This document shows positions 6,763-59,900 of a DNA stretch of 64,000 bases, in pieces. The first letter of the stretch is position 1. Each line of letters begins with the position of its first letter. The position numbers were made by a program, and so were the translations under genes. This DNA is from Asterochloris sp. CNOR1 (taxonomy: Eukaryota > Chlorophyta > Trebouxiophyceae > Trebouxiales > Trebouxiaceae), in the NCBI GenBank assembly GCA_963969365.1, contig OZ017763.1, forward strand, positions 1,240,001 to 1,304,000. Reading direction: 5' to 3'. The notes under the pieces were generated by a model. The model ran no database searches. It saw only the letters and a list, made by a program, of their open reading frames with translations, and was not told the DNA's origin.

Positions 6763-8762
6763 TCACATCAGCAATAACTGCTGCTGGCAGATTGTAACTG
6801 ACACATGCCCTTGCTGGCGCACGACCAGACGTCCATCCAGGAGGTGGGTAGTCCTTGAACAGCAATTGATGAATGCCTCCTCATAGAGCTGCTTCAACTT
6901 AAGAACTGTGAGCATCCTGGTGTTAGACTGCAACTTCCTGGTTGGCTCAAGGAGCCTGGATCTGTAACAATCAGGAGGGTGTCCCTCCAGAAAGTTGTGG
7001 TTGACCACCACCTCCTCCCTTAGGCTTAGCTCGTCTGGCCCCTGCAAATACTTCATGGTGCGCTTCCGCTTGCTGGTTTGCTCCTGTTTGGGTAGGGCCT
7101 TGAACTCCTCCTCATCATAGGCAGGGTTGGGGACGAAGTCACCCTCCACGCGCTTGGGCACAGTACTAAAGAAGCCCGGTACCTTCGGCAAGGTATATAT
7201 GGTGCAACCCACACTCTTTGCGGTGGCTTCCAGCAGACGCTGGAAATCCTCATAGTTTTTGCACTGCAACTCTGGACTCCCTGCCCTGATGGCCACTATT
7301 GCCACTTGCACTGGCCCTTGTCGTCCAGCACTACTCCTGGCACCTCCATGTGAAATTTCCAATCTCCACCACACATGAACTCCACTGTCCTGTGCTCAGG
7401 ATCCCTTGAGTGCCCTGGAGGCAGCAATACGAGCTTTGACAGCGCTGTAGGTGTTGGGAGCCTCAGACATCACAAGGAAATGTACATGCTCAATGCCTGG
7501 CTTGTGGTGAAGAGTGCCTGAGTACTTCAATGTTGTGTCCAAAGACATCCTTCAGAGTCGCCATGCTGTGGCGCGAGACCTGAGGCAGCTGGTCTTCATT
7601 GATGGTGATGTGGTTGACAACAATCTCGAAGTTGCAGTCTTGCCTCTTGCCGCTGCCTGGCTTAGACTTCATCATAGCCTGCTTTCCTATGGAGTGAGAT
7701 TGAAAAGCTCTAAGTAAGAGTTCAAAGTTGCCAGCGATCTTCTCGCTGCTGTCTTGCTTAGACTTCATCGTAGCCTGCTTTAAGAAAGTAGCCAGCTCTG
7801 TCTGCCTGAGCACCCACTGATGCTGAGCAGAAAGGACTGGCACGCTCATGCAAGCCCGTCCCCCCCTGACTTTTGGTGAATTTGGTGGTGCTCACCTGTC
7901 AAGACCTGCTGTATGTGGGGTAGCACAGATTCATGTCAAGCAGAAGGGATGGACAGGAGCACATGACAAGGGCATACGAGCCTCCACCCCTCCTGATATG
8001 AGTTTCCCCTCCCCTGACTTTTGGTGAGTGTGGTGGTGCTCGCAGAGTTCAGCTCTGTCTGCTTCAGCACAGACTGAAGTCAGCCAAGAAGGATTGGCGC
8101 GCCCGCATGAGCACTCCTCTTCTGTTTCTTGGTGTTCATGGTGACAATTGCCTGCCCAGACCAGCTTTGCTCGTCCTAGCACAACTTGATGTTGAGCAAA
8201 AGGGATAGACATGAGCACATGAGCCCCCGTCCCCTGGAATTTGGTGATTTCGGTGATGCTCAGCCACTGAAGCTTCATCTACTTCAGCACAGACTGTGTT
8301 GAGCATGACAATGACTGGAAGACATAAGCCCCTCCTCCCCTGGAATTTGGTGATTTTGGTGCACTCACCTGCCCATATGACAGGTCACATCCTCTGCTCA
8401 CCTCAATGTCCTTGATGCTAATGCTGCGTGATGGCTGTGACACAGCTGCTGACGCCTGAGCACTCAGCTTGGCGTGGTCCTCCTCCTCCTGCATTCTCTG
8501 CAGGGCAGTGAGAGCTGTGGGCCTGCTGGAGCCAAGGCCCTCTGTGAGCGGAATGCCAGCTTCCACAACACACCTTCTGCGCCTTTGCTGCAGCCAGTGC
8601 CTCCTTCTATTCTTGCTTCGTGATGCAGTTGCTGTCTGGGTCTTTCTCAGCGTCTGTCAGGAGGTCCCACCCCTTGCAGTTGATTTTGCGCAGCTCCATG
8701 TGCGCCACGAAGTGTCCCTGCAGGTCACTGAAGTGGTGGCAGGCAGGGCAGCGGAATGGCAT
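6763..8762 (-). pseudogene. Broken unrecognised gene with zinc-finger-like N-terminus
   Basis: The minus strand opens at 8762 with MPFRCPACHHFSDLQGHF, a Cys-x2-Cys ... His-x3-His pattern that could bind zinc. A segment rich in Ser/Gln follows (8566-8279), then 7849-7490 and finally a 6763-7300 block with KSVGCTIYTLPKVPGFF and a Lys/Arg-rich patch (SKRKRTMKYLQGPDELSLRE). Coding-like stretches appear in different frames with interruptions that are not simple introns, so I read it as a decayed gene with several breaks. A stretch with EHVHFLVMSEAP recalls a His-hydrophobic-His motif, but this is too weak to name a family. Its convergence with the neighbouring recombinase gene makes a mobile-element origin possible. 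Partner ORF, host zinc-finger gene and fossil element are all open alternatives. Confidence 0.4.
7860..8370. repeat. Degenerate direct repeats (ttttggtga units)
   Basis: Copies start near 7870, 8019, 8237 and 8343, each with a core like cttttggtgagtgtggtggt or gaatttggtgattttggtg followed by a CTCACC-type end. Spacings are about 149, 218 and 106 bp. A flanking segment (agggatrgacawgagcacatga) also recurs near 7945 and 8203. On the minus strand each copy carries GGTGAG, so these look like copied splice-donor regions of the broken gene. Confidence 0.7.
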
Positions 8763-8806
8763 GGTGGCCAGTAAAGCCGGGGTGCCGGTCAGGAGGGAAG
8801 GTCATT

Positions 8807-9552
8807 GACTTTCCTTTTGCATACTTTAAATCATTCATCACTCAAGAAGTCTAGGTGGGGCATGAGCACCATGAGTGAGCTCTGCCGCGAAGCAGGCCTT
8901 TGAGTTTCACGCTTTGTCGCAGGCGTTACATGGCTTACTTTAGGTCAGTTCTGGCTGAGGGCAGGTGATCCGGGATATGAGCCTCATTCCAGCTAAGAGG
9001 CTGCGTGTGCAACATGTGCTGCCTTACATCCTTTCGAGTCTAGAATCAATGTAGAATGTATGCAGACGTTTTCTTTGGTGTACAATGAATGCAGGATGCT
9101 TATAGAACGAACTCGTAGTCATAGTGCAGCTGACTGACATGAGCTGGCTCATTACCAAGGTGTTAAACAAAGGTGTGTGCACGACTACATTAATCAGCAG
9201 TGTGACACATGAGCGTCGTTTGACCAAGATCTTGGCTCTGTTGAGCAGTCAGGTTGTGTGTGTTCATGTGGTCAGGAGAAGGCAGGGAACCTGTCACATG
9301 TGCAGGACTCAAAGCCAAGTCAAGAACTCTGTGCGTCGACATAGTGGGCACCGGAGATGCTTAGCCAAAAGTGGGCAGCAAAGGCAACAGGCCAGCTGGA
9401 CTGTGTACTGAGCCCAAGACTGACTTCAGGCCGGTCAGGCTGCTCAGCCCCAGCGTGCGGCATAGGCAACCATGCCGGCGTCGCGGCGGCTCTCTGCCCA
9501 TCTGTCCCCGCTGGATTTTTGGCCTGTTAGGGTTTTGGAGTTGGCTGTCTTC
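8807..9552. other. Gene-free interval
   Basis: No conserved peptide, RNA gene or repeat array is visible. The stretch 8820-9100 is noticeably richer in A and T than its surroundings, consistent with intergenic DNA upstream of the broken minus-strand gene and downstream of the coiled-coil gene's stop at 9553. Confidence 0.5.
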
Positions 9553-12500
9553 CTAGATGTGCTGGCCGTGGGGGAAGCGTAGCTGGGCTGCCCGTTGATA
9601 GGCGGCAGCGTGGCTGCGGCTGTGTGCTGTGGCGGCACCACCTGCAGCGCACCACAGAGCTACAAGTTGCTTGCAGGGACCACCTGCAACGATAGAACAG
9701 CCAGGCCTACACCAAGCCTGGAGCACTGCAGATTGCAGCAGATGCTGCATGCTTGGCAAAAATGTATGTGAGGCTGTGTGCTTCCCCATTACCCTCTGCA
9801 GTGCACCACAGAGCAACATGTAGCCTATGTGTTGCTGAGCACGCTGGAGGATGTGCTTGACAGATTCCATGCACTGCCGGCGGCCAGGCACATATCATTG
9901 TTGACGAGTACAGATTGCAGGGAGACGCTGGCATCCAGATTGTGGAGGTGTCAAGGTTCAAAGAGCTACCTCAAGCTGGCCAGACAGGCAGGGGCACAGA
10001 TGCCTGAACAGCTGTTGCAATGCTGCCGCAAAGCTGTGTGGAAAGCGTTACCAGACATTTGCAGGGGCACAGCCAGCAAAGCACATAGCCCTGGCCGTGA
10101 TGATCATGCCATGCATGCAGCAGAGCAGAACATGAACCTTGCTGACCTGTCTCGGCCGTGTCCTGTTGAAGTGCTCCTGCTTGGGCCGGCCCAGCGTGGC
10201 AGGCAGGGCCTGCTGCTGCTGCTGCTGGGGGCGCCGCACTGTGGTCGGGTGCAGGGTGCCCCCAAAGGCCACACTGGGTGGCGGCGCTTGCCGGGCAGGC
10301 AGCGCAGCGCCTGGCTCCCCTGCAGGGCGGCAGACAGCCATGAGCTTGGGACCCAGGAGAGGTGTGCAGCTTTGCAGGCTTGTGTCTGTGCAAGCCCCTG
10401 TTGCTACTGCCCAGTTGGTTGCAAGGGGCAGAGAACAGCTTGCTGCCTGTGGTCATGAGCTCCATGTGCCTGTCTCCAGCAGTGCTCACACATGGCCGTC
10501 GAAAGCATTACAGCTAACCCATTGCAGCTGTGATAGGGCCATGCAGTGGGCAGGGAGGCAGGAGCTGGCCATGCAGCACTGCCATGGGTTAAGGTACCCT
10601 TTACTGCACTCACATGGGGCTGCTGCGTGCAGCAATGGTAGCACAGGCTATGCTCAGGCCACGCTGCAGATAGGTCCTGGTCACAAAGTTCACATCAGAG
10701 CACCACAGGCCACACATGGGTTGAGCTGCAGCTGACGCCGCTCATGCTGCGCTGGTGTGTGCTGCCTACTCAAGACCACCATGGCCCAGCCGTGCGCCAG
10801 TGGGTGCAGCTGCAGGTGGGATGCGTGCCCATGCTGCGTTGCAGCATTTGTCAAGCAGCATGGCACAGGCCAAGCTACCCTGATAAGCACTCACGGTGCG
10901 CTGGCGGTTGTGGCTGCAGGTGGGACGTGTGCCCATGCTGTGCCGGCCCATGTTGCGCTGCAACAGGAGCTCGGTACTTGGCCCCATGCATCTGCTGCAG
11001 GTGGTGGTCGATGGCTCCCGCCAGCTCCACACCCCTCTCCCTGCAGGCAATGCGACACTGGCTTTGGAATAGTTTCCAGTTGTGAGGGTGCTGCATATCG
11101 TATGAGAGATAGCGCCCTGCCAGCTCCGCCGCCACTCTCTGCAGGCAAGGCAGCACTACTTTTGACATTGACAGCCAAAGTTAGGGCGGAGCATCTGCTG
11201 CAGGAAGTCCTCTATGGCCACCGCCTGCAGCTCCTTTCCCTGGAGGCAGTGCAGCAGCTGTGCTGTGGAGTGCGCAGCGAGTGCTGCTGGCTGCTGCAGG
11301 TGGCGACCTGTAGCCCCTGCCTACCAGCAAGACCTGCAGGAGGCCTCTCAGAGTACAGTTGCTGTCTGCGAGTGCAGCATCTGAAGCCGCCAAGGGTGCA
11401 CAATTTGGCGCTGGGCCCCGCTGCACTGCAACACAGATATGCTGCCCGCAGTGATACATCACCCAACTGGTCCACATGAAGTGCTTGCAATCTGCAGCGC
11501 TGTTGCTGTCAGACACCAAGAAACATGAGTGTTGAGACAGCTGCTGCCAAGCACTAGCTTCGTGTTTTCCCCATACCCCAAAAAATGTCATCCAATTGAT
11601 GACATGCATTGTTGTCATCAGACAATCTGGGTTCTTGATAGCTGAATAACCCAGCAACCAGCTGCCTGGGACCCCACCTTGCTCCTTCTCTCGCCCGACC
11701 AAGTGTCTTGACCAGCCGGTCCGTCACGTTGAGCTGCTTCGAGAGTATTTTGGAAACATACTCTTTAAAAAACCCACCTGGAGACATACAGCTTCTCCAC
11801 CAGCTTGTCCATCTTCTCCTTGGTGCTGTCCAGGTCCTTCTTGCGTTCCATGACCTCGTTCTTGGCCTCTATGACAGCCCTGCAGATGCGTCAGCAATGC
11901 CAGCATGCCTTCATTGCCAGTGTTTCCCGGCACGGTGGACTGGCAAGCTCCAGAAAGCCCTGCTCAACCCTGAAGGTTTCATCAGCCTGCTCTTGCCTGC
12001 TTATGAGGTGACATCCCCACAAAGCCAGCATCAGCAGTTGCTTGGCAGCAGCAGCACTGGCCTGGAGTTGTGTCAGCCTGCCGCCGCCAGCGCTTCACCA
12101 AGGTGCCCACCATGGCAGTGCACTGGCATCGAAGCGTCACACAACCATGCCATGGCATGAGCCCCAGCAATGCAGTTGATGCCCCTGACGTCATGCAGCA
12201 GCACTTACGTGGAGGTCGCGTCAGCCTGCTGCCGCCAGCGCTCCATCTCGATGCCCATCATGGTGGTCCGATCATTGAGCTCCGTCTTGACACGCTCCAG
12301 CTCTGAGGCAAGGGCATGCATGTTGGCCTGTAGGGCAGGCGATACAGACATTCGCAGGTGCGCACACTATGCAGTGGGAGGTCGTGCTGAGCTGTTCTGC
12401 AGGAAGCATATCTCCCTGCAACCTTGCACCAGCTTGAGAGGCAGGCGCAGCTCTGGGGCAAGGCCACAGCCGCCAATATTGCATACAGAGTCGGCACAAG

Positions 12501-22500: not shown

Positions 22501-22545
22501 GCAGTCCGGGCGTTCCGCTGGCTTCTCCTCTCTGTGTGCTGTTCC

Positions 22546-25500
22546 TCATTGCTGCTGGCCTTCATGAACAGCACGCTGCAGCCTACAATGGAGCGCTGGC
22601 TGCAACCCTGCAGCGCTTCCCAACAGAGCTCAACACTGGTGCTCTTGCCCTGCATGCTGCAGCCTGGGGTGCTGCGCTGGCTGCGCCTGGCCTGGCGGGC
22701 AAGTCGGCGGGTCTACCTCTCAGAGCAGGTGCTGATGAGGTATCGCACTGCTCGCCTGCTGGAGCTGTGGGAGCAGTCTGTGCAGAGCCTGCCCCAGACA
22801 CCGGTGAGCCTCATAGGGACGGCATGCAGCTCTTCTTGGCACAGAGAAGCATCTTATTGCCAGCCGAGCGGGTCTCAGTACACGTGCAGCAGCAGCTAGA
22901 AAGTGAACTTTGCCGTGGCTGCAGCATGGCATGCTGCCCATGTTGCCTGAGTCCAGCCAGACCCTTCAGACCAAGGCAGGGGAGTGCACATTGCAGTGCA
23001 AGACTGCAGCGCCGTTGGGCACTGCACAGACTGCAGCCTGGAGCTGCCGTGCTGCCGGGCACTGCATGACTTGCAGAGTGCGCTTGACATGCGCCGTGTC
23101 TACGGTGGGGCCTAAGCGAGAGTCCGCAAGCAGCCCACCCAGACACTGATGAGATGAAGCTCTGCAGTCCCATTCAAGCTTGCAAGACTGGTGTGTGGAG
23201 GAGCCACTGACACTCATATTGAGGCCAAATGTGCTGTGACACAGAGTAGCAATTCAGGGACTCGTGCTGTCAAGGCAGCTACTGACCACCCAATGCTGAC
23301 GTGCAGGGCACCTTATCCATGCATCTCAGACAGCATCCAGGTGCATCGGCCAGGAGTTGGCATCTGTGTTTGCACACAGGCCCAATGCTGGCTGCACCTC
23401 AGGTCAGGACGCCTCTGGACCTGGGAGAGCACCCAGATGCTTACGTGATGCACCTGTGGCACAGAGAAATGCTGCAGAGGCTGACGCTGCTGGTCACTGA
23501 CATGCAGCTGCGTGCACCTGGCGGCTGCTCTGCAGGCAGGGACCTTTAAGGCCTGTGAGAGGTCAACATCAGGTTTTGCCTGCAAATGCTAGACCTGCCA
23601 AGAGGACAGTCAGCTGTTTTGCAGCCCAGGGACCTTGGAGAGCATCTAGATGCACACTTGAGGCAACTGCCGATGAGCCCCTGGCCAGTCACTGATGTTG
23701 AGCTGAATGTGCTCAACGGCTGCCCTGCAGGCACAGACCCCAGGCTGCCAAGGTCAAGTCAGTGCCTGTGACAGTGGCCTGTAGAATTTGGATCTCCCAA
23801 GACGAGACAGCTTTCATGCAGGCCTGGATCTCCAGGGATGCATAAGAGCATGTAAATTTTACTTGAGGGACGCGCGGCAGCTCTAGCTGTTGCATGCTCA
23901 GCCCCTGCCATTCCCAACACTAGCCCGAGCCCGCACAGTGGCTGCTTTTCAGGCTGGCCCCCAAGGGATGCTCAGGACGCCTCAGTGTCCTACATTTGTG
24001 ACCTTTACAGTCTGAATGCCCTTGAACACCGTTTGGCTGCCCTGCAGGCCAGGACGCCCAGGGACCTGGGAGAGCACCTAGATGCTTACTTGAAACACCT
24101 GCGGCAGCGAGAGATGCTGCAGAGGCTGCCCCTTCCGGTCACCAATGTGAAGCTTAGCCCGCGCAAGCAGGCCCCTGCAGCAGCGCCAGAGAAGCCAGCT
24201 GCTGCTCCCCCCGCTGCAAAGCCTGAGGTCAAGAAGGAGAAGGCGCCAGAGCTGCCACCTAAAGGTGCATGCCTGCCAGAGAAGCCCCATGCCTTTCAAA
24301 CACAGAAGTAACATCTCCAGTGCCTCCTTGCCAGGGACTGCATGCGATGGCCGTACAGTGTAGATGACTATTGGCTGCTGTGAGGTCGTACAGCAGCCTG
24401 CTGCGTCACACAATGCCTGTCCACCATGCACCAGACAATATTTCAGTCTGAAGCTGCTACAACACCCCTGCAAGGGCTTGCCGCGTTGCCTGCCGCATGT
24501 TCATGCCCCTGTGGCCCGTTTGTGCAAACATCAGACTGGCACATCTTTCCAGCGCTGCAGTACCCCTGCAGGCTGGACTGACACCTTTTGCAGCAATGCA
24601 AGGTGTGCGGTGGCTGAGTCAGTTCAGCCTCAGCAGGTGCTTCTGACGCACACTTTGTAATATCGCGCTGACTTCGATGCAATGTGTGCAGCAGGCTGCG
24701 TCTCCACCGTGCCAGATGACTGATCCATCCACCACGGACCGCGTGTGCACGCTGCTGACTGTGTTGTCCTGCTCTGCATGCAGAGCGGGCGCTGCCACCG
24801 CAGGTCCCCCAGGTGGAGCGCAAGGCTCTCTTTGGCGGCGGCACAGGACTGACAGGTGCTCACGCGGTGAAGGATGTGAGCGAGCTCCTGGGGCGCAGGC
24901 AGATGGCCCCATCTCCTGCTCTAGGTGACAGCTTCCACCTGGCGTGCACCAGCTTGGGTGCTGTGCGCTGCACTTGTGGCAGATTGCACGCTGAGGTGCA
25001 GAGTAGCTTGCCCTTCCCCCTGCTCGCCCAGCTGAGGGCTGCAGCGTTGCTCTCACTGGCAGGGGGGTGCAAGGTAAGGGTCAGCACTGCCAGAGGTGGC
25101 AGGATGAGCATTGAGGCTGCAGCAACGGCATCCAGGCTCAAGTGCCTGCTGTCCACAGTCTTGCATGAACGCCTGACTACCAGGTATCCTTTGGCAGCAG
25201 CCTTGTGGTTGCTGATCGACGCATGCAGCTCAACACGACATACAGCTTTGCCGCAGGTGGCAAGACAGGTGCAAAGGCTGGTGCCGCAGCGTCCGCCTGG
25301 TCCAGCACCAAGGCCCCGCCTCCAGGGAGGAGCAGCAGCCCTCCTCCTGCTGCAGCCAAAAGGCCGGCTGACACAATGCCCGGGAGGTATGATGGCGCGC
25401 CAGTATGCGCTGCCCCATGCCATGTGGCATGTGCTGCTCTCGAGGTTGCATCTGCGATCTGCTCTTGAGATCACGCCTGCAGGGAGCCAGCAGGAGTGCA

Positions 25501-32500: not shown

Positions 32501-35476
32501 CAACACCCATCTCACAAATTCTCACAGCGTGCAACACGCAGGCTCACAGCACACCCACCTGCCGCGGCGGCGGCTGCCACCCCTGCTTTGCCATGTTGAG
32601 GAAGGAGAATGGCATGGGGTGGACATCCCCTGGCTGGGTCTCCATGCAGCTGAAGTCGATGGTGTCCGCAGCCAGACGAGGTGGGGTCCCAGTCTTCAGG
32701 CGCCCCAGGGCGAACCCAGACTGTAGTGCAAAGAGCAAGTCAAGCCAAGGGGAGACTCGCCAGCGGGCTAATGGGTCCAGGCAGTAGCAGGCTGCAAGAC
32801 AGCCTTTGAATTTAGGGCAACACAGAGCAGGGAAACTCACATCGTGCAGCGTCTGAGCCAGGGGTTTGGAGGCTGCAGCTGCAAAGGTGTCGGCTGCATC
32901 TGTCGCCCTCCCTGAGCTGCTGGCCTCTGCAGTGCGGTCTGAGCGGTCCTGCAGGTCAGGCAGCGGCGTGAGCAGTGGCAGCGACAGCTGATTGAGGTTG
33001 TTGCTGCAGGGGATGCAGGGACATGCAGTCAGGAGACATGCATTTCGTAAAATGACAGTCATCAGACCTCTCAAAAGCAGTGCAAGTCTGCAGCATCAGG
33101 GTTGTGCTCAGCTCTCCAGACTCAGGCAAGCTGGCAATGTGGCCCTCGCTGCAACACACACACTCGAGAAAGCAAGCGCACCTGTTCAGAGGCGCTGCTG
33201 GGCATGCGGCCGGCAGCACGAGTCTCACTCCCGATGTGGATGACCCCGCGGAGGAAGGTACCGGTGGTGATGACCACGCTCCTGCACAGCACGCGCTCCC
33301 CTGCAGCCATTGGACACCACAGCTTGTGGAGCGCCTGCAGGATTGGCTATGCATTGACTGCATGAGTCCCGCTTCTTGCTCTGCAGCTGCCGCCTCAGTG
33401 CAGAAAGTCACTGTGAAGACAGTACCTGATGTTACGCTTGGTGCAGCCGAGGACGCCCACCTTGCATGCAAATGCATGCAGACCGCCTCAGCCTCTCAGA
33501 GCAGGTGCCACTGCACGGGGACTTGCTCTTAAGGCAGGGGCAGCCTGACTCCAGTTGCTAAGTAGCACGGGTGGGCACCTCAGCCAAACGCTCCAAGAGA
33601 CGTCCGGAGCACACAGCTGCCCCCGTGAGCACAGAGGCCCCACCTGAAGCCAGCTCCACGCCAGCAATCCTGGTCCCAGGCGCCTCTGAGGAGCCCTCGA
33701 GGGCCTCCCCTCGCTCCAGCAGCACATTTGTGACTGCCCCATCGTGTATGTCAAGCCCAGCAACCTGCACGATGGCTCTGGAGTCAGCAGCCTGTATGCA
33801 TGATGCAAGGCAAGGGCTGAGTCAGGGCTGGCGGCGGCAGCTGCAGGCTGTGTCTGGCCAGGCTGCTGTTGTGCGCAGCTTGATGTCAGCGCACAACAGT
33901 GAGAGCGAGACTGAGCAGATGAGCTGAGCCCCACTGGCCAGCAGCTCCCCCATTTCTCAGGCGTGAAACATCACTTCAAATAATTACTCACCCTGGCCAG
34001 CAGCTGCAAGACCTGCCTCAAGCCTTCTTCGGCAGGCAACCCCTTATGTTTTGCACCACAACTGAAAGTCAGCTACCTGGGCCAGCAGCTGCTGCACAGC
34101 GGCCTTGTACAGGCGCCGGTCCATCTGGGCTCTGGGACCCCGCACTGCGGGCCCCTTTGAGGCATTGAGCATACGGAACTGGATGCCCGCCTGGTCAGCT
34201 GCCTTGCCCTGCACAGCGAGAAGAGGGCTATGAGATGGTGAGATGCAGAGCTGTGCACTGTAGATCCCTTGGCCTGCACAGCCCACTGCCCCCTTGGTGA
34301 GCTGCCTTGCCCTGCACAGAGGGGTGATGTGAGTGGAACAAATCAGCACATTGCAGGTCCCTTCTGAGTGGTAAACATGCAGAATGGATGCCTGCCTGAT
34401 CAGATGCTATGCCCTGCACAGCAGACCGTGGCCCCAGCTTCCCATAGCTGGCTCTGTTGAGGCCCTGAGCGTGCAGACCTGCACGCCCCTGCGTTGCATT
34501 GTACAGGCATGGGCAGTGAAGATGCAGGGTACAGCAAGAGAGAGGAGCATGAGCCTGCACAAGTCGCTGTCTGCGCAACTGGCCGCTATGAACCTGGATG
34601 GAAAGGAGTATGAGTTGTGGGCAGCTGCTCCTTGAAGCTCAAAGCCACGACTGGCATCCTCATGCAGCCCTGTGCAGCAGGATTGTAAGGCCAGAATCCG
34701 CTTGCCGTTTGAACCGGTGTGTAACCAAGCGTTGAGCACTGCAAGACAGCTCACCATGAGTCCATCCAGGGCATCCACCTCCCTCACAAGGGTCCCTTTG
34801 GCCAGCCCGCCGATGCTGGGGTTGCAGCTCATCTCTCCAATGCTGGCGCCAGGAGAGGGGGTCACCAGCAGGGTGCTGGCGCCACGGCGGGCAGCTGCGG
34901 CTGCTGCCTCACAACCTGCAGGCAGGATGGCACCCTATGGGGCTGCTGCTGTGCAATCAAGGACAAAATAGCATTCATGTGACCCGGCTTGCTGAGGCAG
35001 CACATTGCACGAAGTCAGCCTGGACAGGGAGCCCAGGAGCAGACTGCAGCCACAAGTCGCCGGTCTGAGGGCAAGTTGGGAGCCCGCCACGCCAAGGCTG
35101 TCTCAACCTGGCAGGGACTGCCAAAGAGCTGCAAGGAATGAATGGCCACAGGCCATCTGCTCCCGCGCTTGTCAACAGGCATGCTTCTGGTGTAGCAGCA
35201 GCAGTGCTCTGTATTTCCGACAACATGATCTGGTGTCGCATATGCAGCACATTAGCTGCTTGCGTTGCCACAGCTTTCACCTGCGTGCCCTCCCCCAACT
35301 ACTATGACGTCCACGCATTTGCTGCTGCTGGCAAAGCAGGCAGTGTGCACCCGCTGGCGGTGGCAAAGTCCCAGCTGCCTGCCTCTCAGAGTCCTGATAG
35401 AGCAGCGGCTCAGCAGCACACCCCTGCTGCTGAACAGACGCCCTGTGCCCTGCTGAAGGGCCCTTCCCATCTTCAT
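29591..35476 (-). CDS. mnmG: Organellar tRNA uridine-34 modification enzyme MnmG (GidA/MTO1)
   Basis: With MnmE this FAD protein installs carboxymethylaminomethyl-type groups at U34 of organelle tRNAs. Start ATG 35476 gives a Ser/Arg-rich, acid-poor leader of about 55 residues (organelle transit), then [12 protein letters not shown], the FAD-binding glycine motif. Exons: 35476-35281, 34915-34755 ([20 protein letters not shown]), 34208-34077 ([13 protein letters not shown]), 33764-about 33605, 33300-33182 ([16 protein letters not shown]), 33004-32841, 32720-32559 ([12 protein letters not shown]), 32226-32096, 31878-31679 ([20 protein letters not shown]), 31440-31285 ([20 protein letters not shown]), 30915-30702 ([20 protein letters not shown]), 30362-30211 and 29980-29591 ([16 protein letters not shown]). 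A short exon near 30600 is uncertain. The 33004-32841 exon holds a low-complexity insert not usual in MnmG, although its end (KPLAQTLHD) leads correctly into the GRLKTG block. The protein appears complete. Shares a divergent promoter with CDC26. Confidence 0.95.
31090..31207. repeat. Minisatellite, about 30-bp unit, four copies
   Basis: Four imperfect copies of ccagtgccagagcagggacc start near 31091, 31120, 31151 and 31180. The array lies in the MnmG intron between the exons at 31440-31285 and 30915-30702. The last two copies are nearly identical, so growth is recent. Confidence 0.85.
34191..34430 (-). repeat. Ghost-exon array at MnmG exon 3 acceptor
   Basis: gccttgccctgcacag marks the true acceptor at 34201. 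The same text recurs at 34303, and gctatgccctgcacag at 34406, spacings of 102 and 103 bp. The 34406 copy still encodes SDQAGI after its acceptor, like the true ADQAGI, before decaying. Both ghosts lie 5' of the true exon on the coding strand. Confidence 0.9.
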
Positions 35477-35980: not shown

Positions 35981-36054
35981 ACCTGCATCATCTCTCTGTC
36001 GTTTTGCCTGCAGGCTCAGCTGAGCGTGGCTGCGAGGATTGGTCTGCAGAAGTG

Positions 36055-39508: not shown

Positions 39509-39599
39509 TGGTCTATGGACCCAGGCGTGATGAAGTGTTTCTTGCTCCTCTCCTGTTGAGACCTACAGAAGTTCGATCCCTTGGTTGACAGACTAACAT
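39509..39599. other. 91-bp convergent 3' intergenic gap (TTM3/FHY)
   Basis: Two stop codons face each other across 91 bp, so the mRNA 3' ends must be very short or overlap. No canonical green-algal TGTAA poly(A) signal is seen on either strand within the gap. Confidence 0.6.
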
Positions 39600-42500
39600 T
39601 CAAGTCTTTGACTCAGCTGTTGAAGGAGCAAGGAAGTCATCTGATTTCATGTGGGCAAAGGAGGGGTGCAACAGCGCAGACTTGGTCTCATCTGCATCTT
39701 TGTGTATTCTTGCAATGAGTGCGTCGAGAGAATCAAAGTTAGTCTCTGGCCTGATGTAGCCACAAACGAGGAGTCTGAATCCAAACGGAAAACACTCTGA
39801 GCAATCAACATCTCTCAGAGCAGCATGCCATCCGGCACTTTCCCCGATCAGATGAGCAGCAAACAGTGAACCACCTGCCAGGCAGCAAATTGTCGCATTC
39901 AGACCATGACTGCGATACCAGTAAGACCCTCACCTGAGCTCCTTGTCATAGAAGTCCTTATCAAATTTGTGGAGCAGCCATGGTTCGCATGTCTTTGATT
40001 CATTTTTGAAGAAGGGATTCCAACCGACAGACATCACCTGCAGGGCAGATATCACCCGCAGGCTGCAGTGCCTCTTGCAGGGTTGAGGCACACCAGCATG
40101 CAGCTTGAAGGCGGCTTGCTGGCTGGCAGGCGCATTGTAGCCTGACAGCCTGCCCGTGTTGCGCAGCGCCAGCTTGCTTGCAAGGTGGACCAGGCTGCCG
40201 CACTCACCATAGGATAGACCTCTGGCGAATTCCCAATGCTGGACCACCCACAGTAGATGCCTGTCACAGCCTCAGCCAGGGCGCTTTGTAGGGAAGCGCT
40301 GTCCAGATTGGCTGTAGGGATTCCCAGCTCCTTGCTGCCGCGTCCAAACCCCTTCACCACTGTGCCCCTCAGCTGCCAGGGCGGTTCAACAGGGATGACC
40401 TGCAGCCGGCGCTGATTTGAGAAGCCAAGGCACTGAATGCCAGATGAGCGGTTAAACAGGCTGCCAAGCATTGTGCCCCTCAGCTGCAGGGCAACTAAAC
40501 AGAGGCCCCCTGCAGCAGGCAGCACTTGCTGCACATCATGCCATGATGGTGAGTGAAGCTTGAGCACTATGCTGGCTCCACAAGCCCCACAGGAGCACCC
40601 ACAGCGCAGTGTGTCAGGGTCAGACCTGCAGCCTGAGCACAGGGTGAGAGCGCAACTCTTTTTGCAGATGTGCTGATGAGCTGCTGAAAGCCGTGGAAAA
40701 TAATATTACGGCACAGCAGGCCGCCATGCTGCAGCGCATTGCATGGACCCACAGACTGACCTGCCCGTCGATCAGGTCATCAAATGGCGGCAGGCCAAAC
40801 TGGTCAGGTTTGAACTCAAAGAGCGAGGGCAGCACGGCACAGCAACCTGCAGGTGCAGGCAGAGTGATTCAGATGCGGACTTCTACCAGAAACACAAAGT
40901 CCAGCACACAGCGAGCAAGAAAGTCGAGACAAAACTGTCAGGGGCACCCGCAGGGTGCAGCGCACATCGAAGTTGCGACTATTCTGGACCCAAAGTCAGG
41001 ATCTGATCAGGCTGCAGCCACGTGCATGAAAGATGTGACAAGGCTTCCTTGAAACGGAGGTGCTTTCCAAAACCCAGGCTCAATGTGAGGACCGTGCAGG
41101 CTGAGGACTGTACACCATATGCTGCGACAGGGTCTAGGCTGCCATGGTTGAGCGCAAGCAGATCATAGTGTGTCAGCAGCACGTAGTCAGCAAGACATTA
41201 CCAGATAATCAGTCTACAGCTAGGCACGCTTGCCGTTTCTTCTACAGACCTGTCGCTGCGCCTGGGCTGGGGTCCGGGTAGGCTGCAGCGTTCCGCAGAG
41301 AGGGGATCACAACGACTCGCATGCCCGCTGCAGCTGCAGCCTCCACCCCACTGGGAGCGTCCTCGACGGCCAAGCACTCTCTGGGGTCAACATCCAGGCT
41401 GTGGGCTGCAGCCCGGAAGCAGTCGGGTGCAGGCTTGCCATTGGTCACCTGGCACAGGGATCGCACATCTGTGTCAGCCATGGGTACTGGCAGGCAGTAG
41501 GCCCCACCCGGACACTGAAGGTGCTGGTCTGCAGGAGGCACCCTGCTGCAGCTTGGAGAGCTAGTGCACAGCAGGCAGCCCGCAGATGGGGGAGCAGGGG
41601 CTGTCATGGTGGCATTGGCTCACAACAATGCCTCACCAGCTTTTGGTTGCTGGATAGTAACATGCCTGTTGGTCACGCCAGGCTAATCGACCACAACTCA
41701 GATTGTAAGGAAGCAGCACAGCTTGCCATTGGGCAGGCAGCGGTCGTGTCCATCTTGACTGCTCACTTCATCTGGTGCTCACCTCATCCCCGCAGCTCAC
41801 AACAGTGAAAACTTCTGTTGCCCACGAATGCTGCCCAGACAGTTTTTTTTCCAGAGTGGCTCTGCTGGTGCTGGTAGCCAGCGCCACAGGGACTCCATGC
41901 TTGTGCAGATGCCGCAGCAAGCGACCTGCTCCAGGCAGGAGCTTTGCCTCGTGCCACCTGCGTAGCAGCACCAACCTCTTGGTGTTCTGTGTCACAGGCA
42001 CACCAAGTTTGTACAGGCGCTACAGCAGGAAACTGGCATCTGGACAAGCATGAGCCTAGTCTCATGCCACCTGCACAGGAACCTGGTGGTCAGTTTCAAT
42101 ACCCTTTGCCACAGGGACAACGAGCTTGTGTAGGTGATGCATGGGCAGCCTGCCCTATGCAGAACCTGGCTTAATGCCACCTGCCTAACAGGTGTGCAAT
42201 CATACCATATTGGTGCTGTGCTGTGCAGGTGCCTCTGCAGGCGGCTGGCTAGGTTCAGGCGCCTTGCGTTATGCCACCTGGACAGATGTGCTCAGGCCCA
42301 TTTCCAGCACCTGTTGCTGGATCGAAGATTTTTGCAGGTGCCACAGCAGGTGACAGATCTCTAGCAGGTTTTACCTCGTGCCTCCTGTACAAAGGTGCAA
42401 TGGCCAATCTCAACTGTGAGAAGTTTGTATGTGACTCAAGCTGTGTGTGTGTGTCTTTGCTGACAGCTGAAGTGCATGGTGTTGCTGTGTGCTTGGGACG

Positions 42501-43730: not shown

Positions 43731-48761
<5,031 letters not shown>

Positions 48762-49671: not shown

Positions 49672-52600
49672 TCAGCGCCTCTTCAGAGTGACGAGGGAAT
49701 CAGCAGGGTAGATGGTGGGGAGGTAGAGCCAGTCAGCAGCATCTGACTTGGTCTTGCGCCGGGTCCACTCACAGCTGCACGGCAGGAACATGGTGCCAAC
49801 CTTGAGCTGGTGGCCAGCGCTCTGGCAGGCGTGCAAGACGCAAGCGCCTGCGGCTGCGAAGCAGCAATTGACAGAGCTGCTTAGAGCACAGCAGCTGTGT
49901 TTTGGCTGGACCTGTCCCTCCTGAGGGCCAATCCGCAGCCCCCACATATGTTCGCACCATGCACCAAGGGATGGCCGCCAGCCTCACAGGAGCCCTGTTG
50001 TGATGCTCGCGGGTGGCAAGCCAGACCCAAGCATTTCAGAGAGCACCAAGGTGCCAGTACAGGCTGTACCTAGTGCTGAGGATAGCCAGGTAGCAAATGA
50101 GGTGGTTGACCGCATACTCTTTGCCCACACAGTAGTGGGGCCCATGGCCAAATGTCAGGAAGTATTTCTGGTACTTGATGTCCTCCTTGCGTTCTGGGCT
50201 AAAGCGATCGGGGTCGAAGCTCTCTGGCTGTGTGAATCCCTGCAGCAGGAGGTGCAGGGGGTGGGCAGCTTGTGCAGAGTGAGACGCAGGATGCAATGCA
50301 TGCAGGGCTAGGCTGCAGAGGCATCAAGCACAGTGCAACCTCTGCAGCCCTGAACTGCTGGGGCATTGAGCAGGTGCCAAGGCCACGTGCAGCCACACTG
50401 GCAGCCCCAGCACAGCAGATGCTCACAGCAGCCGCTTGAAAGGGCTGCAGGGACTGTGACTGTATCTCATAAGCACATGGCAGCACGCAGGAAGGCTGCA
50501 TGTCTCCACTACAAGGACAGGGCTGCTGCCCCTTATTGTGGTTGTAAAGAGATGCAGGGAAAATGATAACCTCTGGTTGACTGGTTGTTGCGACAGCAGC
50601 ACTCTGTCAAGGGCTGCTGCATAGCTAGGTAGCTACAACAAGAGCAGATAACTGCGGAAGGCATTTGAGACCGACCTGCATGTTGGCTGCCACTATGGAG
50701 GGCATGATAAGGGTACCCTTGGGGGCTACAAAGTCGTCTGTCAGCCTGAAGGGTTTCTGTGCCACCTGCAGGGCCCGCACAGGATTAAAGCCAGCGAGCC
50801 TCGTTGAGGCGGTCTGATGTGCACAGCCTGCAGCATGCTACACATACTTGACAGTCACGCTGCATGTCATTTGGTAGGGCTTGCTCGAGCTGCAGACCAG
50901 TTCAAGATGATGGAAACGGTGGCCTTTGCTGCTGAGCAGGCCCACACACATTGAACAAGAACCAAGTCGAGTTCAAAAGGCTCAAGATGGCCCATTTGGT
51001 CACAGCAACACAGGCGGCTGAAGCACAAACTGCAGGGAGTCAGCAATCCCATGTCTGCAAAACACAAGCCCGCAGAGGTCGCCTTATGTCCGACCAATCA
51101 AGGAAGACAGCAACCCCCATAGTGTGCACTGGTGGTCCCATGTGGTACTGGTCAGCAGGCAGCGCAGCACGTCCATGACCATATGCCTGGCTCAATGACA
51201 AAGTTGCAGGGGCTCACAACCCCATCAGTAACCTCTATGAAAGCATGTTCTGAATTGCGCTCTGAATGGGGCCCACAAGTAGGGCCTACAAGTGACCCAA
51301 GAGGGCAGGGACCTGGGCAGCGCCGCCCAGCTGTGGGCCCTTGAAGCTGTAGCTTCATGACACCCTGCCTGGCATGCAGGCTGCCTTTGTATACCCAAGA
51401 GGGCAGGTGCATAGGCAACCACGCTCACCTGTGGCACCGTGGAGCCTGCAGCTGCTGGATGCCGTGTCTGGCATACAGGGCGCATCCAGTTCACACCGAG
51501 AGATGGGCATTCTGCTCACCTGTGGCACCATGGGGGCTGGAGGCCTGTAGCGCAGGACCTCCTTGACCACTTGGCGCGTGTACTGCATCTCTGCCAGCAG
51601 CTCTCCAGTGATGGTGGCCTCCAGGTCAGGGCGCAGACGGTGCTGCTCCTCACGCACCTGCAGGCAATGAGGCTGTGAATTTCAGCAGAGGCCACAGCAT
51701 GTGTGGCTTGAGGGTCGAGACGCATGCAGTGTTGCTGCTCAAGCACCTCTGGGGGAACGGGTCAGAGCATGCTTCAACGTGAGAGCTGTGCACTGGAAAG
51801 GTGTGGCAGGGCTCTGCTTGCAGAGGGACAGTGCAGGAGCTGCCCAGGCAGCAGTGAGTAGAGCAGTCCAGCTGTGGCCAAAATGCGGGACTGGTGATCC
51901 CGTGTGGATGCCATCTAGCCCGTGCATGAGGCCCCTGGGCTCAGGCAACAGAAGCTCCATTTAAGTGGGTGAAATGCTGCTCGACCATTGGCAGTACAAC
52001 CTTGACGTAAAAGCAAATGAGTCAGCCTGAGCCCCGCCCAGCTGCTCTGTTACTTTACTCAGCCCAAGACCATGAAGCAGGGAGCAGTCTCGATGCCCAC
52101 CAAGCTACACTTACCCTTTGACATTGTGCTGTTCAGCCATCACGCAGGACACCCATGTGGGAGTCCCTCCAGCTCACCTGGACCAGCACTGGGAGTTCTT
52201 CCAGAGGCTCAGCCATGAGGCAGGTCACCCACACCAGCTTTGCAGTGAGACTTGTCCACCGTGCCATGAATACAAATAAGCTCACCAAGGCCAACACCTC
52301 TGCATGGTCCGCAGATCATCTGCCACTCTGCAGGTCAAGCAGAACAGCAGGGCAATTGGTGGCCTGCCTCACGGCCCAGGTCACCTTGGCCAGCACCTCG
52401 GGGTGCTCTGCCATGAGGCAGGTCACCCACACCAGGGACGCGGTGGAGGCGTCCTGACTGGCAAACAGGAAGTCCATGATGGTGTCAGCCATGGCCCGGT
52501 CGCCGGTGTGCACGGGGGGTGGCACCCCTGTCTCAGCCGCCTCTGACACCTCCGCCAGGCAGCGCTGTGCCCAGAAGTCCATGAGGCAGGTGGGCTCCTG

Positions 52601-55600
52601 GCCGGCCTGCAGGCGGGCAGAAACACGACTTAATTGCTTGTGGCTGTGACTGAGGTATCTATCAGGCAGGTGGGCTCCTTGTCGGCCTGCAGGCAAGCAA
52701 AACAATCTTCTTGTTGCTTGCCCTGCCCTGCTTGACGCACAAATGTTTGTGTACAGCTGAGTGGTTGCCCCCTCACGAGCCACAGGAGGTGGGAGAGCTG
52801 GCAGAAGGGCTCCTTGCCAACCTGCAGAAGGGCAGGAGCAGCAAGGCAAAGCAGCACCTGAGCCAGACATTTTCGCTTTCACCTATGAACTTGCTTTGCT
52901 GACTTATGCCAGTTCTTGAGCAAAGCGTTTCTTTGATCCACGCACTGCAGGCCCCAAAGCCCACCTTCATGGCTGCCTTGCTCTTGCCAGCAGCCTCCTC
53001 TAGGAGGTCAATGATCCACAGGCGACCCTGCTTGCCCTTCCAGACGGCAGTGCCGGGGATGCACAGGGGGAAGGCCAGGAAGCCCTGGGTCATGTCCTGG
53101 AAGCAGTCGCTGAACTTCTGGCGCTTGACTGGGTCCGTCAGGTAGGGTCCAGCAAAGACCTCTTGGCTGGTCGCTGCATTCATGTCCCTGCAAAGTGGGC
53201 AGCGCCAGGATTGCAGCAGCTGCTGTGCAGGGGTTATTCACACAGTGCACGGCGCAGTGATGGGTGCAGGAACAACAAGCTGTAGATTTCAAGCTGCTGA
53301 GACCTAACCCCACATGGTATCTCATGCAGACTAACTGCGTCCTGACTGCTGCTGTATGCGACATGTATGTCCCAACACAGCTCAAAGCGTGCAACCAGCC
53401 TGCTCTGCGCGTGCTGTGCTCTGAATGCAGATGCATAGGCAGCAGGCCGGTCCCTTGCTGCCGCCGATCATATGAATGGCACATCATCATGGGCTGCGTA
53501 ACTAGGACAGCACTGCCAGCAGGTATTGCCGTAGCAATAATCTGAGCCATCAGCCACTCACTAGCTTTGCACGTATGTTACAGTGCACTTGACGTCTCAT
53601 TGCTGTAATGACCGGAATCTGTAAAGCCAGCCTGCCTGGTTCATCCAGCAGCTGCCCAGCAGTGACTGGCCCAGACGCGCTCTACTGGGGCTGCAAATGT
53701 CCTTACATCTCTCTTCTATCAGCCAGCCTGTGTCAGCTACCCTGATGCCAGTATCATGCGCTGCAGGTGCACATGAGGACCGGGTCAGAGTCCAGTGTAA
53801 CCAACCAGCTGAGCATCACCCAGCACCCCTGTCTGAGCCCTACCCTGCAGCCGTCTCCCCTCGCCAAAGCCTGATGTGTCTCTCCCCTTCTTTGGAGCCC
53901 ACCCTCAGCCCTGCGCGCTCATGCCAGCCGTTCCTGTCACCTCCAGAGTGTGCAGGGCCCGGCACCCATGCAGCCCACAGCTCACCTGACAAAAGGTCTG
54001 ATCTCTCTCTCCCCATCTGTGTGTAGCCACTCATTCAGGAACCTCCTGATGACCCCATCCTGCACCTCCACATATGTGGCCAGCGCCTTGCGCGTGAACA
54101 GGGACAGGAAGCTTCGGCGGATGGCCTTGTGTGGGGGGCCGTGCATGAAGGCCAGATTCCCCTCGCCTAGGATGTTTTTGCCCGAGGGGTGCACCGCCAT
54201 CAGAAGTGTCTCGGGGTCATTATAGCTGAACACCTGCAGCACACCAGCACCAGAGGCATGATTGGTGCCGCCTTTCAGCAGCTGTGCGCGGGGCGTGTTG
54301 GACGCCCCAGTCAGGCAACCTGCTTACAAGGGCTGCTGCAGGCTGCGCAACAGTCAGCCGCATCCGGGATTGTGGCAATGTGCTGAAGCAGCCCCAGCAC
54401 GCACCCTTGCCAGCAGCAGTGCTCTTGAGCACAGCCTGGCTGTGCCAGCCTCGTCAGCACAACAGCCTGTTCTGGAAGCTTTTCACCTTGCGGCTGATGT
54501 CTGCATCTGTGGTGAACACCATGAACTTGCCCAAAATGCTGTTCCAGGAGAAGCCAGGGAAGGAGAACCTGCACAGCCAGATGCAGGACACCATCAGCAG
54601 CCAGCTCTTGCAAGCCCAGTGGCAAGCAATGCCCTGCCAGCCAGACAGCCAGCGGCAGCTGCCTCCAGCCCCATTGGCAATGCATGCGTGCATCACTCAA
54701 TGCAACAGCAGCAAGCAGAGAAGCTAACATACAAACTGATGAGCAGCACAGCCGCTGGCACCCCCCTCCCCCCGCCCCCCCTCCCCCCGGCAAGCAATGG
54801 TGCCACTGCAGAGGCCCAAACATGTGCTCCTCTCTGCCAGTCACGGCGCAGCTCAGCTCATACCAAGAACAGGTCTGCACCCACTTTTGCGAATCCTCCC
54901 AAGGTCACAACAGGGATGTGCACCGCAGCATACCCCATCACAAGGCAGCAGATAAGGAAGCTGCCACATAGGCTGGCATGAATGTGAGACGATGCCGCTC
55001 GCCACTGTGCAGCCTGCCAACATGAGACCTGTGCTTACTTTCTCTGATCCTCCCAGAACTGGTAGGGGTTCAGCACCATGTGGATGATGCACCCAAACAG
55101 TGGCACTGCATACTTGGGCCCTGGCACGGACTTCCACCCGCTGCGTCGCCTGCAGCCAGCAGCACTGCGTGTCAGCACCCTGGGTGGAGACATGCTGTCT
55201 GCAGCTGGTGGCCGCCCAGAGCAACAGCAGTGGCTGTCGCACGGTGTGGTTGCTGTGGCTCAGCCAGAGCAACCCAGCCAGTGAGTCAGGCTCATCACCT
55301 CCTCGCAACCAGCCGCTGCGCCACCTGCAGCAGCATCATGCCCCTGCCAGCGCAGGAGACTGCAGCAGCACGAAAGATGATATTCCAAGCTTGTGAGAGC
55401 AGGCTAAGATCGCCAAATTTTCAGGTTGGGGATTCGGTCAGGTCCGCCCCAGCGCACAGCGTAGCAGCAGCAGTGCTGGGCGCTTGGGAGTTCCTGCTGC
55501 CTTGCAGCAGCCTGTTTCCCAAATGTACAGGGCCTGCATCTGTGCAAGATGCTCACGCATCTGTTGCCGCTGCGTAATGAGCGCAAAGGAAGGGGAAACT

Positions 55601-56949: not shown

Positions 56950-59900
56950 ATGGGGAAGGGCAAGCAGGCCTTGATGGACAATGACGCCCAGGACGAGAGT
57001 CACCTCTCAGATCAGCTCCAAAAGCGGCAAATTGCTGCCATACTGTGCGTGACACCTGCAAGTGCTGCCTTGAGCTGGCCATGCGCCCTTGCGCCTACAG
57101 CCTCATGGCATTGCCATGCTTGCATGTCACATATATCGTCTGATCCTGATTCCTGACTATCCACCTGCAGCTTGTGTCAGCTCAATGAGGCCGTGCAGGT
57201 GAGGCACACCATTGAGAGCATGCAAAATAATCAGCAGTCCTTCTCTTGATTGGGAGTACTTTGAGCCGTACTGCTGCAATTTGTACCATTGATGGCCTTG
57301 CCCCGCAGATCACCACTCCCTATACTCTGTGCTCGTACATGGTGCGCACCTACCTGGGAGCAGCCTCTGATGGCAGCACAGTGGCAGAGGAGCGTATTGG
57401 GCGGCTGACAGGCATTTTGGTGAGTACAGGCGAAGCACAGACGTCTTGAAGGTGGCTGATGAGCGGCCGAGGGATACATGCCTCCCCAGCAAATGCCAGA
57501 ATGCAGCAGTAGGCGCTTGGCCGATCCCCTTGCCCCACACACCAGTGCCTGGCACTGAGCAATATCCTGAACCTGCATTGATAGGCACTTGCCAGCCGGC
57601 ATGAAGCTCAGTTACAACGTCAGTCAAGTTGTCGCCAGCCATTGCTGCAACTCACCAGCTCTTGCTGACCATGCTCATGGCTACTGCTCAAGGCAGCACT
57701 TCTCACTTTTCCATATGCCTGCAGGCTGCTGCCTTTTGCGCAGCTCAGTTCCTGACCAGCTACCCTTGGGGATGGATCTCGGAGAGGGTGGGGAGGAAGG
57801 TGAGAGATCACAAGCTGCCAGCCTGCGCCTGTACTCACATGCGCGCAGGGCATTGCAGACCAGCCAGCGTGCTCTGGATCGCCAGCCAACTGCCACCTTG
57901 TAGCTTCTTTTCTGCATACTGCAAGCATGCCGTGCTTCTCTTAATCATGCTCTGGGGCAAGTTGAGCTGCCCAGCAGCATGTTGGCAATGCGCTGAGCCT
58001 CCAACTTTGCCTGCTGCAGCCCGTGGTCATTGTCAGCAATATCAGCAGCCTGGTGTCGGTGGTTGCTTTCGGCATGAGCACCAGCTTTGCACCGGCAGTG
58101 GTTGCCAGGCTGATGGGTGGAACCTTCAACTTCACCTTTGGGTGAGTCTCAGCTGTGCCCATTCCATCCAGGGGGCCACATTGCCCCCCAGCTGCTCCAC
58201 ACCTTGTGGAAACAGGGCATGTTTTGTGGCATTCTTAGGCACACAGCACACACTGTGTCTAGAATGTAGCATGGGGCACCATGGTCACACAGCAGTCTTA
58301 TACATGCTTGGTCGTGCAGCACATCATAAGCGCAGAGCATGGTGGGGCCACCACACTTATGTAGCGCACCTTGAATGCAGAGGTTTGCGTGGGGCACAGT
58401 GGGCACACAGCATGAAGCACCGCCACGACATCCTCCTTTGTTCTGATATATCGCTGTGTTGCCAGCAGGTGTGTCAAGTCGATGATTGGGGAGAGCTATA
58501 CTTCCAAGGCACAGGCCAGGGCGCTGGGCCTGCTGAGCACAGCCTGGGGTGTTGGCGCTGTCATGGGTGAGCCCTGCTTCGTTTAGTAGCCTCCATCTCA
58601 GGGCTGGCGACTGCAATCTTGTCATGCTTTCGTGCGATTTCTTCACAGGAGCATGGCCAGGCTCATTGATGACCCTGAGGCCACAGCAGCAGCTTGGCAG
58701 TGGTGTAGGGTGTCTCCACGCATGGACTTGAGTAGTCAGAGCAGTGCAGTCTTTGCAAAAATCTGCCAAGACTGCACTGCTAGCAGGCTTGGCTGCTGCC
58801 AGGAATGCTGCTGTGCCTGCCCAGGTCTGGCTCTGCAGAAAGCGAGGCAGAGCCCATGCTCAACCAAGCATGCTGGCTTTGCAGGTCCAGCACTGGGAGG
58901 GGCGCTGGCACGGCCCTGTGACTGGACCAGCATTTCTGCCCCCATGTGTGGCGATGAGCAGCTGTTTCAGACCAGGTGGGCAACAGTGTCGTGGCATCGC
59001 TGTCAGGCTTCAGGCCTCGTGAGGTTTCATTCCTGATTGCTCTCAGACATAATTACCTGCTTGACGCGGCTCATGTGGCTTCTGTGCTGGCTTCACTTGC
59101 CCTAAAGGTCTGGCCGAGGCCTGTGCCTGTCAGCATGCAGCAGCCCAGAGCCCACACAGGCGTTGACACGGCTCTTCGCACTGTTCCCTGAGCTTGACAG
59201 GCCAGCCTTGCCTGCTTGCAAGCCCTACCTGCCGCTTTGCCTGGCGGTGGGTCCGCCCTCCCTTTTGGCCTTGCTACCTGTTGCTGCTCAGTCAGCACAT
59301 AGCACTGCCCATGCTGTCTGCAGGCCGTACCTACTGCCCTGCCTGGCCGTTGGCCTGCTCTCCTTGGTGGCCACCTGCTCCAGCATCTTCCTTCTTCCTG
59401 AGACGCTGCCGCGCCTGACCAGCAAGCAGTACACGGCGCTCCGCTCAGCAGATGAGGGGGCTCTCAAGCTGGAGGGTGGGCTGCAGGATGGTGGCTTGGA
59501 GGGCGGCGGTGAGGGGCCTGCACTGACATAGGTTGCTTCACCTGGTGGCTCTGCTGCCCAGGTTGACCATGTGATGGGGCTCATCAGCAAGCCTCAATTC
59601 GTCTGCACATTGCAGGCCCACCCCCGGAGGTGGTGTCTGCAATGTGCTATGTCATGCCGTAGCATCTAGGCATAGAGTCGAGAATATCGAAGGTTGTATG
59701 CTGCATGTGAAGGTCTGGAGCTGGGGCTGATGGCAGTGCCAAAGGAGCGCTGCAGCCCGCAGGCTGCCTCTGCGCACGCTGGGGCCGCTCGCCGCGTGCA
59801 GCGCGGGGACTCCGCCCATGAATTCTACACCGGCAGCCGGCCAGTACTGGCCAGCAGCTCCCGCCTGCTTGCCACTCAGGAGTCTGGTGGCCCTGTACAC

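Follow-up and report, generated by a model that had tools for sequence, protein, structure and literature searches.

In the model of Hellsten et al. 2011, as it is presented in excerpts of two papers (PMC4974935, PMC3443670), a segment of an intronless exon is duplicated in tandem and a new intron is created. We analysed a pattern which resembles this model in that a segment bearing splice-like sites is duplicated in tandem and the extra sequence is spliced out, and which is found in the introns of the green alga Asterochloris sp. CNOR1, on a stretch of 64,000 nucleotides (contig OZ017763.1, positions 1,240,001 to 1,304,000, hereafter the window) and in 18 further loci: decayed tandem copies of adjacent exon edges, which we call ghosts. 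In contrast to the model, the duplicated segment in Asterochloris already holds an exon-intron junction, and it is an existing intron that would be lengthened. Tandem duplication is known as a class of event, of which the pattern is a variant. We consider it likely that many small, untargeted tandem duplications took place in this genome, and that those straddling a junction lengthened existing introns and left decaying edge copies inside them.

The nearest single instance in the literature compared is found in one of the two papers mentioned above (PMC3443670, PMC4974935), where an excerpt on potato describes an 83-bp tandem duplication inside an intron that left the structure unchanged. The Drosophila work on intron sliding and tandem duplication, in the part relevant here (PMC2891723), is similar inasmuch as duplication near intron borders changes introns; it is concerned, however, with novel intron positions, whereas in Asterochloris many introns of one genome are affected and no shift of position is shown. 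Small head-to-tail duplications without a sequence target are also known from break repair by CST/Pol alpha-primase, according to part of a report (PMC8355091) on mammalian cells, induced breaks and overhangs of ~50 bp, while the Asterochloris copies are known from sequence alone. Introners (PMC9860276) are comparable as an episode shaping introns genome-wide; they are, however, dispersed families creating new introns, whereas the Asterochloris copies are locus-specific, and the main text of that paper mentions neither Asterochloris nor any word beginning with Chlorophyt-. Our literature search found no description of this pattern in Asterochloris. Gao and Lynch 2009 reportedly dealt with duplications inside genes at the scale of genomes, with regard to the creation of introns from coding duplications. 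The literature compared here, in the portions covered, treats intron gain far more than lengthening. For Asterochloris glomerata a genome of 56 Mb with 10,025 gene models and a mean of 9 introns per gene is given in the sections consulted of PMC6652019; the word 'tandem' is absent from the main text of that paper, and the pattern is not described in the 12, out of 18, mentions of 'intron' and 'repeat' that were consulted.

Exon-edge copies in modelled and predicted genes

Each exon edge was compared with its adjacent intron by local alignment, and a score of at least 18 was taken as a match. In three genes of the window for which homology-based models could be made (30 introns, 60 exon edges), 13 of the 60 edges matched their own intron, as against 5 of 1740 comparisons with swapped introns; at a score of at least 20 the counts were 11/60 and 1/1740, and 11 of the 30 introns bear a ghost. 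These figures supersede those of first-pass models, in which too narrow regions had truncated the genes (9/54 edges, 3/1404 swapped). In the wider set of predicted genes 87 of 624 edges matched their own intron, while matches were obtained in 35 of 18720 comparisons with length-matched introns of other loci, in 3 of 2938 with non-adjacent introns of the same gene and in 1 of 624 with the reverse complement of the own intron. A preliminary description of the window had claimed tandem, progressively decayed copies of exon edges within introns and had proposed shuffled and non-adjacent introns as controls; the claim was borne out by the comparisons above, including the non-adjacent one, and by the shuffled control reported below.

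Edge copies are present in 78 of the 312 predicted introns (about a quarter), in 57 of the 246 introns outside the window and in 16 of the 18 outside loci, which also agrees with the genome-wide spread that had been suggested. Copy-bearing introns are longer (median 467.5 versus 313.5), and edge matches become more frequent as introns lengthen: 2 of 80 edges match in introns below 150 bases and 26 of 92 in those above 600, the length-matched controls giving at most 12 matches in 2760 comparisons in any length class. Three of the 87 edge matches failed realignment, and the 84 aligned copies analysed below comprise 40 donor and 44 acceptor edges.

The source assembly totals 56,383,464 bases on 21 contigs, the window being C18:1240001-1304000; the wider sample (244 kb) consists of the window and 18 loci of 10 kb, taken at 300 kb on contigs C1-C18. 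The homology-based models were made with a spliced aligner fitted with proteins of relatives. The tyrosyl-tRNA synthetase (TyrRS) of the window corresponds to jgi/Astpho2/8586, with identity over 445 residues; its model has 9 exons at 100% identity, and all eight introns were reproduced with three more relatives' proteins. CYP710 was modelled in 11 exons on the 520-residue protein P0241, with 100% identity, and two other proteins concur on nine of the ten introns of the gene. Since P0241 is encoded on a contig of 2126 bases and the CYP710 gene measures 6.9 kb, this contig is presumably derived from spliced RNA and represents a transcript free of ghosts. MnmG (29594-35350) corresponds to jgi/Astpho2/8589, with identity over 631 residues, and was modelled in 13 exons with a Trebouxia protein, on which the MnmG edge test is based. 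The JGI protein and the proteins of three relatives disagree on several MnmG intron borders, therefore the JGI model may contain annotation errors; the single MnmG ghost adjoins a junction common to all four proteins.

For the predicted set we used a gene finder of our own, which was trained on TyrRS, CYP710 and MnmG, tuned on them and then self-trained. Before tuning it gave far too many introns, and the tuning set was these same three genes. In leave-one-out trials its base sensitivity was 0.85 and its precision 0.89, with 0.70 and 0.75, respectively, for splice sites. The output comprised 32 genes and 312 introns in the 244 kb, the three modelled genes included, and a Pfam check of four predicted peptide stretches gave three clear matches (NAD kinase, RCC1, coatomer beta) and one without any.

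The ghosts and arrays of the window are as follows; each source is the exon edge that was copied.

44060..44158, plus strand: TyrRS intron 1, acceptor-edge ghost of the next exon; source 44171-44268, junction 44202, lag 111, score 29.0
44465..44603, plus strand: TyrRS intron 2, donor-edge ghost; source 44228-44368, junction 44359, lag 237, score 46.0; single-locus in the genome
45594..45700, plus strand: TyrRS intron 4, donor-edge ghost; source 45427-45538, junction 45515, lag 167, score 27.0
47319..47412, plus strand: TyrRS intron 7, donor-edge ghost; source 47181-47275, junction 47272, lag 138, score 41.5
48103..48190, plus strand: TyrRS intron 7, acceptor-edge ghost; source 48199-48288, junction 48233, lag 96, score 25.0
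48491..48574, plus strand: TyrRS intron 8, donor-edge ghost; source 48333-48421, junction 48407, lag 158, score 37.5
34349..34425, minus strand: MnmG intron 2, acceptor-edge ghost; source 34143-34221, junction 34208, lag 204, score 36.0; three-copy family D9
34283-34320, minus strand: MnmG intron 2, additional copy; region single-locus in the genome
55309..55351, minus strand: CYP710 intron 2, acceptor-edge ghost; source 55134-55176, lag 175, score 20.5 (weak)
53842..53945, minus strand: CYP710 intron 5, donor-edge ghost; source 53964-54070, lag 125, score 25.5
52658..52720, minus strand: CYP710 intron 6, acceptor-edge ghost; source 52578-52640, lag 80, score 34.5; single-locus in the genome
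52169..52257, minus strand: CYP710 intron 7, donor-edge ghost; source 52376-52454, lag 197, score 33.5; single-locus in the genome
51699..51748, minus strand: CYP710 intron 7, acceptor-edge ghost; source 51611-51659, lag 89, score 20.5 (weak)
51411..51451, minus strand: CYP710 intron 8, donor-edge ghost; source 51503-51542, lag 91, score 21.5
41876..42400, minus strand: FHY, five tandem copies of acceptor plus exon start; mean column identity 64%; single-locus in the genome
36784..37650, plus strand: tandem array in the gene predicted at 35612-39508; families D1, D11, D13; single-locus in the genome
37381-37453, plus strand: predicted acceptor-edge ghost of the gene 35612-39508 (model and edge both predicted)
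23389..24154, plus strand: about four decayed copies near the open reading frame (ORF) 23856-24311; families D3, D6; single-locus; outside the gene models made here

With regard to the genes named earlier, the arrays of TyrRS, CYP710, MnmG and FHY stood, while that of a supposed coiled-coil gene (7.86-8.4 kb) belongs to a repeated element. The arrays at 23.4-24.2 and 36.8-37.65 kb hold up as single-copy local repeats, but a gene model is absent for the first and only predicted for the second; of two further, putative names, TTM3 found no Pfam match and MFS (array at 59.2-59.4 kb) a sub-threshold one. The claim of several arrays per gene holds for TyrRS and CYP710, with six edge copies each, and not for MnmG, with one. 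In FHY the copy 41876-41968 was judged by eye to be coding and the four copies upstream of it are apparently decayed ghosts; ORFs near this array have HAD and flavokinase Pfam matches.

In the locus L005 three consecutive copies of a NAD kinase exon (8960-9330) were seen at different stages, the first two 93% identical and the third much decayed. A GT follows each of the first two, and the predictor fused both into one exon; the second copy is the youngest clear exon-edge duplication seen in the sample. Another stretch of the same locus, 8500-8840, has an acceptor with its exon start in three to four copies, at lags of 78 and 130.

Growth of existing introns versus gain of new ones

Of the 84 aligned copies, 72 extend 3 or more bases to either side of the junction, so that intron bases are included in the copy. 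Since the copies carry intron bases past the splice site, the introns concerned would have existed before the duplication. A newly gained intron, on the other hand, would be expected in another register, with the upstream exon end copied at the 3' end of the intron or the downstream exon start copied at its 5' start. At a score of at least 18 none of the 312 introns has the upstream-end type and a single one has the downstream-start type, with 0 of 5734 controls for either type, and in the first-pass test none of 27 introns exceeded the control maximum. It seems that existing introns grew by copying their own borders, rather than that new introns arose.

In the preliminary description the introns themselves had been linked to tandem duplication of AGGT-containing exon segments; on this reading the extra copies would be debris of the process. 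Tandem duplication is real in this genome, the model is well supported elsewhere (in the parts consulted of PMC3443670 and PMC4974935), and one strong (score 33, L005 8719-8840) and two weaker matches in the gain register (17.5 in L018, 17.0 in L010) could be quoted in its favour. The strong match, however, sits inside the acceptor array of L005, where the predicted intron is doubtful, and the intron bases in 72 of the 84 copies, together with the near absence of the gain register at the threshold, make this origin improbable as a general explanation, although the sample may contain a handful of intron gains.

Decay of the copies and probable preservation of the exon edges

The extra copies had been described as out of frame, and indeed a frame-breaking indel was found in 68 of the 84. 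Differences between exon and ghost in the modelled genes affect 65/272 sites of codon position 1, 54/274 of position 2 and 88/272 of position 3; the corrected ratio of divergence at the third to that at the first two positions (d3/d12) was 1.64 (bootstrap 1.18-2.24) in this set and 1.28 in the predicted set, where the lower value perhaps stems from some wrong frames. Such a codon-position pattern is what one would see if the ghost drifted at all sites and the exon mostly at silent ones, and the ghosts look dead.

That the copies might function as alternative exons, or as decoy splice sites in regulation, is about as improbable as intron gain, or marginally more so. Splice dinucleotides are retained in 48 of 75 ghosts of the predicted set and in 9 of 13 of the modelled genes, and the second NAD kinase copy is followed by a GT donor at 93% identity, which could be quoted in favour of such a role. 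This retention gives no clear sign of use. As the mark of alternative exons we looked for pairs in which both copies keep an open frame and constraint on the protein, and did not find it: besides the broken frames, codon positions 1 and 2 together differ at 119 of 546 exon-ghost sites, far more than two working exons should under protection, and the transcript-like protein P0241 of CYP710 is free of any ghost.

The apparent death of one partner and the presumed conservation of the other bear on why exon edges are so conspicuous. In a simulation, edge pairs were 1.5-2.7 times more detectable than intron-intron pairs at 0.20-0.25 substitutions per site, and the divergence of the ghosts at codon positions 1 and 2, estimated as 0.257, is close to this range; edges can therefore stand out without any targeting of splice sites. 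The prominence of exon edges would thus be at least partly a matter of preservation, one copy being frozen by selection. In a symmetric search (86 matches) the matched fraction was 0.574 for exon columns and 0.372 for intron columns. The changes from exon to ghost are broad (499 transitions, 529 transversions), with C-to-T or G-to-A about 2.7 times commoner at CpG (97/392) than elsewhere (218/2368), which suggests CpG methylation.

Proposed untargeted duplication, its timing and its meaning

Tiles of 80 bases were compared with the next 1000 bases (window) or the next 1500 bases (sample), at a threshold score of at least 22. In the window 72 of 1573 tiles have a local direct repeat, with 0 in a distant stretch, 1 in the reverse complement and 0 in shuffled sequence; in the window and the 18 loci together the count is 250 of 5929 tiles (controls: 2 reverse complement, 2 other locus), and every outside locus has at least two repeat-scoring tiles. 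The repeats are local, of the same orientation and widespread. Most pairs are too diverged for the placement of breakpoints; their lags peak at ~70-130 with a second rise near 200, short units being under-detected. Head-to-tail duplication should give a homology about as long as the lag. Among 63 pairs with lags of 40-130, 52 are homologous over 0.8 of the lag or more, as this predicts; among 38 pairs with lags of 130-450 just 9 are, a shortfall that we put down to multi-copy arrays or lost homology. Repeat pairs (mobile element included) cover similar shares of the bases outside predicted genes (6.0%) and of intron bases (7.2%), which again speaks for preservation as at least part of the tie to exon edges; 50 of the 225 pairs lie wholly outside predicted genes, a class that takes in genes missed by the predictor.

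We suggest that small head-to-tail duplications, with units of ~70-130 bp and not aimed at splice sites, arose in large numbers, and that those within introns, outside genes or astride exon-intron junctions would have been tolerated, the straddling ones because one complete exon and splice site stayed usable. Each straddling event would have lengthened a pre-existing intron and left in it a copy of the exon edge, which, being presumably neutral, decayed. By analogy with other organisms (PMC8355091), the cause at the level of DNA might be nicks, staggered or paired, that were filled in during repair and then closed by end joining.

Derivation from dispersed mobile elements or introners is very improbable: one of the arrays first described, at 7.86-8.4 kb, truly lies inside a repeated element, but a genome-wide search of ten arrays gave no match beyond the own locus for nine of them, and each ghost resembles its own adjacent exon and not other introns. 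The tenth array is part of the following feature.

3152..8949 (approximate borders), strand not assigned: dispersed repeated element of ~5.8 kb with internal tandem repeats and many partial and fuller genomic copies

At least 45 genome matches to 7780-8380 and at least 99 to 2500-9700 were found, mostly at ~75-95% identity; the ORFs of the element belong to no clear Pfam family, with one sub-threshold Bro-N match at 3933-4754. The array at 7860-8400 was accordingly rejected as an exon-edge ghost. Elsewhere in the window a 5S ribosomal RNA gene (Rfam RF00001, 90 bits) lies at 16655-16773, minus strand.

Chance similarity, low complexity or assembly error can practically be dismissed, for although low scores do arise by chance (375 of 18720 length-matched controls at a score of at least 15), at a score of at least 22 there are 54/624 own matches against 0/18720 length-matched, 2/2938 same-gene non-adjacent and 0/624 reverse-complement ones, and most copies are 15-35% different, hence not duplicated reads.

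Several observations weigh against the growth of introns by untargeted duplication. Coding bases have the highest repeat coverage (8.7%, which includes the sources of exon-intron pairs), and 21 of the 225 pairs are coding-coding. Within the alignments, intron columns differ less (279/1452) than exonic ones, the opposite of what a frozen partner would lead one to expect; we attribute this to alignments stopping where similarity stops, and the symmetric search above points in the other direction. The ghost splice dinucleotides of the modelled genes (9/13, against 414/772 exonic dinucleotides) may be mildly retained. In the gain register, at a score of at least 16, the upstream-end type occurs in 2 of 312 introns against 1 of 5734 controls (downstream-start type 1/312 against 3/5734). 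The age of the introns would be deduced from register alone, and most of the exon-edge sample rests on predicted genes.

Near-identical copies are rare. An annotation-free set of 108 pairs (at least 45 bases, lag of at least 60, mobile element included) holds none above 95% identity and 2 at 90-95%, followed by 8, 17, 25, 30, 21 and 5 in the next 5% bins. Among 57 edge copies the divergence is below 0.15 in 3 and 0.15-0.30 in 29 (binomial P 1.3e-6), after 27 of the 84 copies with fewer than 40 exonic columns had been dropped; from the class table, pairs overlapping 7400-8500 were dropped. The edge set undercounts young copies, since a young ghost still in frame may be predicted as part of an exon, which happened in L005, but the annotation-free set is free of this bias and shows the same scarcity of young pairs. 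The notion of a living record of the process, put forward in the preliminary description, therefore fits poorly, the NAD kinase array of L005 being the exception.

Constant births with clock-like divergence predict at least as many young as old copies at any rate of loss; as young copies are scarce, duplications probably arose more often in the past than they do now, and the scarcity of near-identical pairs suggests an old pulse. Repeat-targeted hypermutation is not favoured as the reason for the missing young copies, given the broad change spectrum with its CpG excess, and birth of copies in an already diverged state is disfavoured by the d3/d12 values of both sets. We tentatively propose, as a real possibility, that Asterochloris passed through a time-limited, mutator-like episode of ~100-bp tandem duplication, by now largely stopped, which built a substantial share of its intron DNA, and that, the exon partner being held by selection, the event behind each exon-anchored ghost can be dated from the ghost itself, which would also keep a record of the spectrum of neutral mutation.

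It should be emphasized that about a quarter of the predicted introns bear direct marks of having grown through copying of the sequence at their borders. For annotation these copies are a hazard, since dead copies that look intact can be mistaken for exons, as happened to our predictor with the NAD kinase. The exon-anchored ghosts would, in turn, serve as an internal clock and document neutral mutation, and no relative would be needed for either. Should a full annotation confirm the age pattern, this would indicate that DNA repair or replication once changed in a single lineage, which could be tested in other Asterochloris species.

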